From assembly GCF_900104485.1 (NCBI RefSeq), contig NZ_FMXQ01000010.1, positions 62,001 to 126,000 of the forward strand: DNA of 64,000 nt, in the 5' to 3' direction. The notes below the pieces were generated by a model that saw only the letters and a program-made list of their open reading frames with translations, had not been told where the DNA came from and did no database searches. The DNA comes from Bauldia litoralis (GTDB taxonomy: Bacteria; Pseudomonadota; Alphaproteobacteria; Rhizobiales; Kaistiaceae). Position 1 is the first letter of the stretch; the number at the start of each line of letters is the position of its first letter. The translations under genes were made by a program, and so were the position numbers. This document shows, piece after piece, positions 55,268-58,378 of this stretch.

Positions 55268-56704
55268 ATGGCTGAAGAGCTGAAACCGGATATCTGCGTC
55301 ATCGGCGGCGGGCCCGCCGGTATCGCCGTCGCCATTGCGGCTGCGAATGCCGAGGTTCCCGTTGTCCTCGTCGAAGGCAGCGAGATGGGCGGCGTCAACG
55401 TGGCCGCCGCGGTGCCCTCCAAGGCGCTTGTCGCGGCGGCGAGCCGATACGAAAGCCTGCGGGTCGGGCCGGCTTTTGGCGTGACCGGGGCACCGCTGCA
55501 GGTCAATCTCGGCAAGGTCCACGATCATCTTCGCTCGGCGACCGAGGCGGTGGCGGCCAACGGGTCGGCCGAACGGCTGACCGCGCTCGGCGCCACGGTC
55601 GTCAAGGCGCAGGCCCGATTCGTCGACGGGCATACGGTGGTTGCCGGCGACACGACGATCCGCGCCAAGCATTTCGTTATCGCCACCGGCGCCAAGCCGG
55701 TCATTCCCGATGTTCCGGGTCTCGGCGAGGTCGACTACCTGACCTTCGAGACGATCTTCGACGCGACGCGAAAGATGGGCCACCTGATCGTGCTCGGCGC
55801 CGGTCGATACGGACTTGAGATCGCGCAGGCCTATACCCGGCTGGGCATCGACGCGACGGTGATCGACGACGGGCCGGCGCTCGCCGACGAGGATCCGGAA
55901 CTCGCGGCGCTGGTGCTGGAACGCCTGCGGGCCGAAGGGATTCGCGTCCGCGACCGGACACGTATCCTTGGTGTGGCCAGGCGGCGCGGAGGAATCCGGG
56001 CGACCGTCGCCGCCATCGCCGGGAGCGAAAGCGAGGAGATCCCGGTCGACGGCACACATATTCTCGTCGCACCGAGCCGGCGGGCAGCCAATATCGGCGG
56101 ACTTGGCCTCGACAAGGCCGGCATCGAGCATGATGGCGAGGGCATCAAGGTCGATCCGCATTTGCGGACGACCAACAACCGCGTCCATGCGATCGGCGAT
56201 GTGATCGCAGGGCCCGCCGGCGTCAACCGCGCCGAACATCAGGCGGCGATGGTGGCCAAGCGACTATTGCGCCAGGCCGGACCTGCGACCGGCGTGTTCC
56301 CCATCCCCTCCATGGCGATGACCGATCCGGCACTGGCCGCGGTCGGCCTTGACGAAAACGAGGCCCACCGGAAGCACAAGGATGTCCGTGTGCTGCGATT
56401 GCCGTTTGCCGAAAGCGACCTGAACCAGGCCGACCGAGCGACGTCTGGATTGCTGAAGATCATTGTCACGGATCGCGGGCAAATCCTTGGCGCCGCCGCG
56501 GTCGGCCGCGAGGCAGGCGAGGTCATAGCCCTCTGGTCGCTGGCGATCGCCAACCGGCTCACCATTGACGCCATGCAGACCTTCGTGGCGCCGTATCCGA
56601 CCCGTGCCGACCTGTCGCGGCGGATCGCCGAAAGCTTCACCGGCCCGGGTTTGACGCCACCGCCGCGGCGACGCATCATCGATTTCCTGAGAAAATCCGG
56701 CTGA
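55268..56704 (+). CDS. FAD/NAD(P) oxidoreductase of disulfide-reductase fold lacking redox cysteines
   Basis: The 478-residue protein has the FAD motif VIGGGPAGIA (11-20), a central NAD(P) motif VLGAGRYGLEIAQAYTRLG, the second FAD contact VHAIGDV and a C-terminal dimerisation domain, like dihydrolipoamide dehydrogenase. The CxxxxC of GGxCxNxGCxPSK is replaced: GGVNVAAAVPSK puts Val43 and Ala48 there. The C-terminal HPTxSE dyad reads PYPTRAD. It cannot use the classical dithiol mechanism. It is followed after six bases by a histidine kinase gene. Confidence 0.85.
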   Translation: MAEELKPDICVIGGGPAGIAVAIAAANAEVPVVLVEGSEMGGVNVAAAVPSKALVAAASRYESLRVGPAFGVTGAPLQVNLGKVHDHLRSATEAVAANGSAERLTALGATVVKAQARFVDGHTVVAGDTTIRAKHFVIATGAKPVIPDVPGLGEVDYLTFETIFDATRKMGHLIVLGAGRYGLEIAQAYTRLGIDATVIDDGPALADEDPELAALVLERLRAEGIRVRDRTRILGVARRRGGIRATVAAIAGSESEEIPVDGTHILVAPSRRAANIGGLGLDKAGIEHDGEGIKVDPHLRTTNNRVHAIGDVIAGPAGVNRAEHQAAMVAKRLLRQAGPATGVFPIPSMAMTDPALAAVGLDENEAHRKHKDVRVLRLPFAESDLNQADRATSGLLKIIVTDRGQILGAAAVGREAGEVIALWSLAIANRLTIDAMQTFVAPYPTRADLSRRIAESFTGPGLTPPPRRRIIDFLRKSG

Positions 56705-56710
56705 TTGGCT

Positions 56711-58192
56711 ATGGACGACCGGCCGCGCAATACAGAGGCCGAAATCGCGCGCGACGCAGCGGCCAGAATACCTCGGGCCCGTCGCGGCCCGGGCCTGTCG
56801 TGGAAGCTGTTGATCCTGACTCTGCTCTTCGTCTCGGTCAGCGCAGTGCTCATCTATGTTCCCTCGATCGCCAACTTCCGTCTCACCTGGCTCTCGGACC
56901 GGCTGGCGATGGCCGACACAGCCAGCGTCGTGCTCGCCGCCGCCGACACGGTCGACGTTCCCCGCGATATCCAGGACCAGTTGCTCGCCGCGGTCGGCGC
57001 CACGGCGATCGCCATCCGCACCGGCTCGGTCAGCCGGCTGATCGCCGCGGTCGAGATGCCGCCCGAGATCGATCGGACCGTCGACCTGAGGATGATGGAA
57101 CCGGTGGCCGACATCGTCGCCGCCTTCGAGACGCTGCTCGCCCCTGACGAGCGGATGCTCCGGGTGATCGGCGATTCACGCAACAGCGGCGCGGTCGAAC
57201 TGGTCATCACCGATACGCCGCTTCGCGATGCCATGCTGTCCTATTCAGTGCGGGTTCTGTGGCTCGCCGTGCTGATCTCGGTCATCCTGTCCGGCCTTCT
57301 CTTCCTGAGCGTCGACCGGATGTTCGTGCGGCCGATGCGCCGCCTGTCGCAGAACATGGTCGCCTTCTCCGACGCGCCGGACGATTCCACCCGGGTGATC
57401 ACGCCGAGTGGACGCGGCGACGAAATCGGTGTCGCCGAGGACCACCTCGCCAGCATGCAGCGTGACCTGCAGACAACGCTGCGCGAACAGCGGCATCTCG
57501 CCGATCTCGGCCTTGCGGTGTCGAAGATCAATCATGACCTGCGCAACATGCTCGCCTCCGCCCAGCTCTTCTCAGACCGGCTCGGCGGCGTTTCCGATCC
57601 GACCGTCCAGCGCTTCGCGCCGAAGCTCATCGCCGCACTTGATCGGGCAATCTCCTATTGCCAGACGACGCTCGCCTATGGCCGGGCCCGCGAGGCCCCG
57701 CCGTCCCGACGTCTGATAGCGCTCGATCGGCTGGTCGACGATGTCGCAGACGGGCTGGGACTCGTTGGCCACCAGACCATCGCCTTCGACAATGCCGTGG
57801 CGCAGGGCATGGAGATCGATGCCGACCCCGACCAGTTGTTCCGGATTCTGGTCAATCTCGGCCGCAATGCCATCCAGGCGCTGGAGAGCGATTCGTCGCC
57901 CGCCCTCGTCCGGCGGCTGACGATCTCCGGCGAGCGGCGCGACGGGTGCATTGCCATCCGCGTGGACGATACGGGCCCGGGCATTCCGCAAGCGGCGCGC
58001 GCGCATCTCTTCCAGGCGTTCCAGGGCACCGTACGGCCCGGCGGCACAGGGCTAGGACTGGCGATCGCGGCCGAACTGGCACGCGCCCATGGCGGCTCGG
58101 TGGCGCTTGCCGAGAAGGCCGGCCCGGGCGCCTGCTTCGAGATCATCATCCCCCATCGCCGCGAATCGAACGGCCGGCCACGCGCCGCCTGA
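56711..58192 (+). CDS. Orphan sensor histidine kinase
   Basis: The 493-residue inner-membrane kinase has two membrane helices (about 31-53 and 178-202) bracketing a 125-residue periplasmic domain. A HAMP-like linker, the H-box SKINHDLRNMLASAQ and an ATPase domain follow (NLGRNAIQAL, DDTGPGIP, GGTGLGLAIAAELARAHGGS). No response regulator lies nearby. It is six bases after the FAD oxidoreductase stop; a TTG at 56705 is an alternative start. Confidence 0.92.
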   Translation: MDDRPRNTEAEIARDAAARIPRARRGPGLSWKLLILTLLFVSVSAVLIYVPSIANFRLTWLSDRLAMADTASVVLAAADTVDVPRDIQDQLLAAVGATAIAIRTGSVSRLIAAVEMPPEIDRTVDLRMMEPVADIVAAFETLLAPDERMLRVIGDSRNSGAVELVITDTPLRDAMLSYSVRVLWLAVLISVILSGLLFLSVDRMFVRPMRRLSQNMVAFSDAPDDSTRVITPSGRGDEIGVAEDHLASMQRDLQTTLREQRHLADLGLAVSKINHDLRNMLASAQLFSDRLGGVSDPTVQRFAPKLIAALDRAISYCQTTLAYGRAREAPPSRRLIALDRLVDDVADGLGLVGHQTIAFDNAVAQGMEIDADPDQLFRILVNLGRNAIQALESDSSPALVRRLTISGERRDGCIAIRVDDTGPGIPQAARAHLFQAFQGTVRPGGTGLGLAIAAELARAHGGSVALAEKAGPGACFEIIIPHRRESNGRPRAA

Positions 58193-58301: not shown

Positions 58302-58378
58302 GCGCCCGTAGCTCAGCTGGATAGAGCACCAGACTACGAATCTGGGGGTCAGAGGTTCGAATCCTTTCGGGCGCGCCA
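58302..58378 (+). tRNA. tRNA-Arg (anticodon ACG), CCA encoded
   Basis: A complete 77-base cloverleaf: acceptor GCGCCCG/CGGGCGC, D arm GCTCAGCTGGATAGAGC, anticodon stem CCAGA/TCTGG with loop CTACGAA, T arm AGAGGTTCGAATCCTTT, discriminator G and encoded CCA at 58376-58378. The anticodon ACG (I34 after deamination) reads CGU, CGC and CGA. Confidence 0.97.

Follow-up and report, generated by a model that had tools for sequence, protein, structure and literature searches.

Sequence comparison inclines us to regard the gene pair described here as a cut-down version of an old gene unit of the Alphaproteobacteria, made up of a TVP38 membrane protein, a MerA-like reductase and an orphan sensor histidine kinase, a reading that we hold to be somewhat better than an even bet. 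The pair lies in the window, by which we mean the whole 64,000-nucleotide stretch of DNA that was analysed, and consists of a protein with the fold of the flavoprotein disulfide reductases (FDR), encoded directly upstream of, and on the same strand as, the kinase (HK):

55268 to 56704, + strand: FDR, flavoprotein-disulfide-reductase-fold protein without redox cysteines, a putative pseudo-reductase (open reading frame, 478 aa).
56705 to 58192, + strand: HK, orphan membrane histidine kinase (open reading frame; Pfam HATPase_c).

Two starts are candidates for HK, a TTG at 56705 that abuts the FDR stop (495 aa) and an ATG at 56711, six bases past the stop (493 aa); the sequence-only reading of this DNA, which put the kinase six bases after the FDR gene, is right for the second of these. 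No TVP38/VTT gene was found upstream of the window FDR, where the genes run on the opposite strand, and the genome has a single TVP38 match (E<=1e-15), which sits next to a second, canonical FDR on a different contig. A tRNA-Arg gene (ACG, 58302-58378) directly follows HK, and a cobalamin cluster seems to come after it, by gene calls made by eye.

What is left of a disulfide reductase in the window FDR? The segments of interest are these:

55292 to 55321, + strand: FAD-binding motif ICVIGGGPAG (residues 9-18), kept; G13, G15, G18 and E36 are found in 9/9 own-family sequences.
55385 to 55426, + strand: former redox-cysteine motif (residues 40-53), now MGGVNVAAAVPSKA; C44 and C48 are found in 0/9 own-family sequences.
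55784 to 55819, + strand: LIVLGAGRYGLE (residues 173-184), the NAD(P)-binding motif; unbroken in the window, eroding in relatives.
56585 to 56623, + strand: former Tyr-Glu motif (residues 440-452), now VAPYPTRADLSRR, by motif comparison.
56660 to 56701, + strand: tail helix at the C terminus, basic and ending in RRRIIDFLRKSG; a subfamily trait kept in most cysteine-less forms.

The protein is predicted to have a full-length reductase fold; it matches Pfam Pyr_redox_2 and Pyr_redox_dim, and its AlphaFold model (pLDDT 90) has 1ebd as best PDB match (Foldseek TM 0.86/0.90). Of the marks of a class I flavoprotein disulfide reductase, the FAD motifs and the fold are present, and the CxxxxC motif and the acid-base pair are not. 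The canonical GGDCLNxGCVPSKAL reads GGVNVAAAVPSKAL, with both cysteines absent; the canonical YPTxxE reads YPTRAD, so that Tyr-Asp replaces Tyr-Glu; and the GxGxxG motif of the NAD(P) site reads GAGRYG and is intact. By sequence, then, the window FDR appears to be catalytically dead with its FAD site retained. The sequence-only reading was correct that both redox cysteines are lacking, and they are absent from eight own-family relatives as well, while C44 and C48 are present in all 85 canonical HK-adjacent FDRs. Its statement that a His-Glu pair is lacking needs amendment: the Glu is now Asp, but the His position is Tyr anyway in this subfamily, where Tyr-Glu is found in 101/101 compared relatives with both cysteines (85 HK-adjacent and 16 not, three other own-genome reductases being left out as outgroup). 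Likewise, its statement that the FAD and NAD(P) sites are kept is true of the window, but the second and third glycines of the NAD(P) motif persist in only about half of the clade.

HK is an old orphan kinase, nearly universal in the order. It is present in 28/28 genomes of the family, in 232/249 genomes of the order (E<=1e-40), where 11 of the 17 misses are genomes of 0.9-1.5 Mb, and in 136/289 genomes of the class (E<=1e-60); nearly all of the positive order and class genomes have one match. Its own genome has a single full-length match of 1052 bits, the next best scoring 61 bits. The features of HK are as follows:

56795 to 56869, + strand: TM1, residues 31-55, by hydropathy.
57224 to 57313, + strand: TM2, residues 174-203, by hydropathy; helix conservation here best tracks catalytic FDR.
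57518 to 57574, + strand: H box VSKINHDLRNMLASAQLFS with phospho-acceptor H277, which is found in 30/30 aligned sequences.

H, N and G boxes are present, and H277, N384, D422, G424, G426, G449 and G451 are invariant in the alignment of 30. Pfam HATPase_c scores 73 bits in the window HK; the HisKA profile does not reach its threshold there, and does so in the ortholog L155. The AlphaFold model of HK (pLDDT 81, pTM 0.49) has a periplasmic domain between the two helices, and the Foldseek and VIA matches listed for HK, among which a periplasmic sensor fold was sought, are to the kinase core throughout. Residue 47, in TM1 (56843-56845), is Glu in 127/141 orthologs and Ala in the window HK and five close relatives. 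Does the kinase have a linked response regulator? With a profile built from nine own-genome receiver domains, a receiver domain was found in the fetched flanks of only 6/140 HK loci, at no constant position, and on the window's contig the closest response regulator detected is about 45 kb off, which bears out the earlier observation that none is nearby.

The adjacency of FDR and HK is far from chance. An FDR gene lies just upstream of HK on the same strand, starting 1.3-2.6 kb from it, in 89 of 140 fetched loci (order 50/80, class 39/60), so that the survey proposed in the sequence-only reading turns up a strongly conserved arrangement. The two are direct neighbours in 50/50 order and 34/39 class loci, the other five class loci having a gap of about 0.5-1 kb. 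The 80 order loci were chosen for family spread among the better matches listed, with the result of the order-wide FDR search already in view, and they leave out families whose HK matches are weaker. For the class, 60 of the 136 HK matches were fetched, about one per family (one of them, L213, belongs to the same order), and "no FDR" was judged at the HK locus only. Counting was strict: L225, with an FDR 3.3 kb upstream, is scored as not adjacent, and both L133, where a broken 325-aa FDR piece follows TVP38 and lies 0.8 kb upstream of HK, and L252, with a 393-aa FDR homolog 5.2 kb downstream, were excluded from the FDR counts and the tree. The broken piece at L133 could be true decay or an assembly error. 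In the window's own family FDR is found in 9/28 genomes (E<=1e-70), the best match adjoining HK in 9/9, and in the order it is found in 173/249 genomes (E<=1e-65). The FDR is dispensable: none, or only a broken piece, lies beside HK in 30/80 order loci and it is absent from 4/9 own-family genera; the window gene may itself be on its way out.

A third gene commonly completes the arrangement. A TVP38/DedA (VTT) gene, identified by PF09335 in the representative tested and of COG0398 type by name, lies upstream of HK in 44/80 order and 42/60 class loci and precedes the FDR in 78/89 FDR-HK loci. The trio is found in 7 of 10 named orthologs (>150 bits to the HK queries) among 80 loci listed; its carriers among the matches listed are Roseibium, a Hyphomicrobiaceae MAG, a Hyphomicrobium MAG, Ruegeria (R. 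denitrificans, L296), Roseibacterium, Maliponia and Acuticoccus. The remaining three, from Afipia and two Bradyrhizobium, have no FDR, the Afipia record and one Bradyrhizobium record offering only 2.2 and 1.3 kb upstream. TVP38 is also seen upstream of HK with no FDR between them, for example at L105, L229, L244, L248 and L260, and a DUF547 (PF04784) gene stands ahead of the trio in 12 loci (6/80 order, 6/60 class), such as L118. Among the nine own-family genomes with a cysteine-less FDR, TVP38 (E<=1e-15) is found in two, the same two whose genomes hold a canonical FDR as second copy, which suggests that catalysis goes with TVP38; a counterpoint is provided by four canonical FDR loci without an adjoining TVP38.

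Is the cysteine-less form the original one? Of the 100 distinct FDRs adjacent to HK, 85 have both cysteines and Tyr-Glu, and both cysteines are found in 16/16 fetched non-adjacent homologs, which were chosen as second or relocated copies and not at random. The FDRs at 82 of the 89 fetched loci are canonical, which marks the cysteine-less FDR as the derived state. The sequence-only reading had treated the lack of cysteines as part of how the module is built, and this is not supported: counting the window, 82/90 HK-adjacent FDRs keep both cysteines, usually behind a TVP38 that is lost here. The 15 cysteine-less HK-adjacent FDRs are nine from the window's own family, five from family f19 and one from family f42. 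In a quickly built tree with SH-aLRT support only, the nine form one clade (support 100) nested inside the order's canonical HK-adjacent FDRs, and those of f19 form a separate clade (97), to which the lone f42 sequence attaches by a very long branch; by this sequence evidence cysteine loss is placed at two or three occasions. The f42 member, L213, is a very divergent cysteine-less FDR next to the HK of a different family within the order, and its long branch makes its position unsure. The canonical second FDR of the window's genome (L270, contig C6, 64501-75907) is 40% identical and has TVP38 directly upstream. It looks horizontally acquired, and the second copies of f19 look acquired from outside as well, as the tree groups them with FDRs of other orders; the second FDRs in f40 and f44, which the tree places among the order's own, look relocated.

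Loss of the cysteines is accompanied by an uneven erosion of other residues, scored at sites at least 90% conserved in the 85 canonical FDRs. Glycines 13, 15, 18, 41, 42, 141 and 310 of the FAD site are retained, together with E36 and D311, by all nine own-family proteins, each of which has lost C44, C48 and the flavin-side FTH (F318, T319, H320). E448 is lost in 6/9, and the NAD glycines 179 and 182 remain in 4/9 and 5/9. The f19 proteins have lost G15, E36, G42 and D311 as well, and their binding of FAD is doubtful for that reason. Most cysteine-less FDRs retain the basic C-terminal tail. NG86 estimates of omega are 0.20-0.65 over 36 own-family pairs, rough values with dS often near 1, and 0.33-0.59 over 10 f19 pairs. 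Under neutral evolution the window FDR and its nearest relative should have accumulated about 27 nonsense changes between them, and both frames are open. Relative to HK, FDR dN is 1.3-2.6x in the own family and 2.7-13x in f19, compared with 0.5-1.5x for canonical FDRs (15 pairs). Omega below 1 and open frames, together with the raised dN, indicate a cysteine-less FDR that is relaxed but not neutral.

Does the kinase register the state of its neighbours? In a scan of conserved HK sites, those most often lost without a canonical FDR sit nearly all in TM1 and TM2. Mean conservation of the transmembrane sites is 0.93 with a canonical FDR, 0.78 with a cysteine-less one (8 loci) and 0.82 with none, against cytoplasmic means of 0.945, 0.962 and 0.931; the labels were taken from the alignment (81 canonical, 51 none, 8 cysteine-less), L231 being left out for a misread start. 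Over 32 edge-disjoint pairs on an HK tree built from the cytoplasmic columns, transmembrane sites are better kept with a canonical FDR (mean 0.084, p=0.0015; p=0.019 with the consensus from the FDR-less set), and no such difference is seen at cytoplasmic sites (p=0.6) or at periplasmic ones (p=0.85). Dropping L133 and L225, which are counted as having no FDR, leaves 31 pairs with p=0.0012 (p=0.015 with the FDR-less consensus). When supported branches alone are used, 14 pairs give the same direction at a suggestive level (median p 0.06 for transmembrane sites, 0.22 for transmembrane minus cytoplasm). The test is post hoc, since it was prompted by the site scan on the same alignment.

Related comparisons run the same way. 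In four genomes, from only two families, where the FDR-TVP38 unit has been relocated, the HK helices score 0.99, and in 23 genomes of the order where the order-wide FDR search found none of this kind they score 0.77 (Mann-Whitney p=0.0017, ignoring kinship). Within one genus the helices score 0.96-1.00 with a canonical FDR (2) and 0.68-0.76 with a cysteine-less one (3), the cytoplasmic part being 0.96-0.99. Small samples give 0.78 for TVP38 without FDR (7 loci) and 0.90 for canonical FDR without TVP38 (4 loci). The window HK has a helix score of 0.68, and the relaxed helices at cysteine-less loci argue against full signalling from the pseudo-reductase. A redox cysteine in HK was considered as an FDR-linked sensor and rejected. 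The commonest, C319 (94/141), does not track FDR state, being present with 53/80 canonical, 34/51 absent and 7/10 cysteine-less FDRs, labels that were set by a text pattern which mislabels a few canonical FDRs, including L263. The conserved adjacency, the want of a linked regulator at nearly all loci and helices that track the FDR unit make a functional link likely.

What would such a link look like? HK most likely belongs functionally to the membrane TVP38-reductase unit and would read it through its helices. In the full unit, we infer, HK would sense, by way of its two transmembrane helices, what state a membrane complex of TVP38 and FDR is in, and would pass the signal on to an unlinked regulator. 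Comparison shows that TVP38 has gone from the locus in the window's family and that the FDR there is without its cysteines, FTH and, mostly, the Glu of Tyr-Glu, with FAD residues and a selected open frame beside HK remaining. The window FDR would no longer reduce disulfides, and might persist as a flavin-binding, membrane-docked partner of HK or as a remnant nearing loss; the HK core is fully kept and its helices are relaxed. A bolder version, in which a DedA protein and a reductase form an undescribed sensory input to an orphan kinase via its transmembrane helices and the window reductase is a dead, flavin-binding ligand of HK, a pseudoenzyme sensor, strikes us as less likely than not.

One might argue instead that decay is simply in progress, with HK alone reading a periplasmic signal of its own, TVP38 and FDR merely co-transcribed with it, and the window FDR dying without a role. 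The faster evolution of FDR, the stages seen in the family, where first the cysteines, then the NAD motif and then the whole gene go missing, and the many genomes that keep HK without such an FDR would fit this account, but the open frames with omega below 1 in two lineages, the FAD residues in 9/9 own-family FDRs, and helices that track the presence of the unit, even in the four genomes where it is relocated, do not, and we judge it possible though on the unlikely side. Could the cysteine-less FDR instead be active, as an NAD(P)H:acceptor (quinone) oxidoreductase like LpdA (Rv3303c), either as an ordinary metabolic enzyme or, much as the sequence-only reading proposed, as a signal of electron supply for HK? 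The intact FAD and NAD motifs of the window protein, its predicted full-length reductase fold and the match to Rv3303c (1xdi) at 110 bits in a sequence search of the PDB would allow it. Against this stand the breakage of the NAD motif in about half of the own-family FDRs and of the FAD site in f19, the second cysteine-less lineage, the loss of the flavin-side FTH in 9/9 own-family proteins, and an HK without a cysteine that tracks FDR; such activity seems improbable. Finally, the pair might be functionless and held together merely by its position near a fixed chromosomal neighbourhood (rnpA, yidC and engB, names given by eye), since a yidC-like cluster lies upstream in 61/81 order loci including the window, on a crude choice of open reading frames. 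As the pair is also found without those neighbours, for example at L122-L126 and L144, and in other orders, this explanation is already disfavoured, and we give it hardly any weight.

Fusions of COG0398 DedA (TVP38/VTT) proteins with pyridine nucleotide-disulfide oxidoreductase domains have been reported (PMC10127716), and they share their partners, PF09335 with PF07992/PF02852, with the TVP38-FDR unit. The term "histidine kinase" is absent from the main text of that paper (PMC10127716). Unlike the fusions, the window locus is without a DedA partner and without the FDR catalytic residues. The best family matches of the window FDR, over nearly its whole length, are in the MerA-like group (NCBIfam PRK06370 and MerA TIGR02053), at scores far below the curated cut-offs (302 vs 620 bits and 279 vs 454). 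MerA has Tyr at the catalytic His position, a trait that the window FDR shares with the group, from which it differs in lacking both redox cysteines. Mycobacterial LpdA (Rv3303c, PDB 1xdi) is a reductase-fold relative, distant in sequence at 110 bits, that acts as a quinone reductase without normal disulfide chemistry; we know of no linkage of LpdA to a kinase. RegB/PrrB are membrane kinases thought to report membrane redox state, and HK differs from them: it lacks a linked response regulator and a cysteine that tracks FDR, and it has a periplasmic domain between two helices. Among open-licence papers, a scope outside which most subscription journals fall, no paper on the TVP38-FDR-HK trio was found, and the unit is apparently undescribed.

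What might this unit mean for the bacteria that carry it? COG0398 DedA is reported to be essential in Caulobacter crescentus and Dinoroseobacter shibae, and the function of COG0398-type DedA proteins and their link to aerobic metabolism are open questions (PMC10127716). The unit proposed here would tie an orphan kinase present in 232/249 genomes of the order to proteins of this type. Its members would also form a natural series, from full unit to pseudo-reductase to kinase alone, in which the change of an enzyme into a regulator, or its loss, could be followed.
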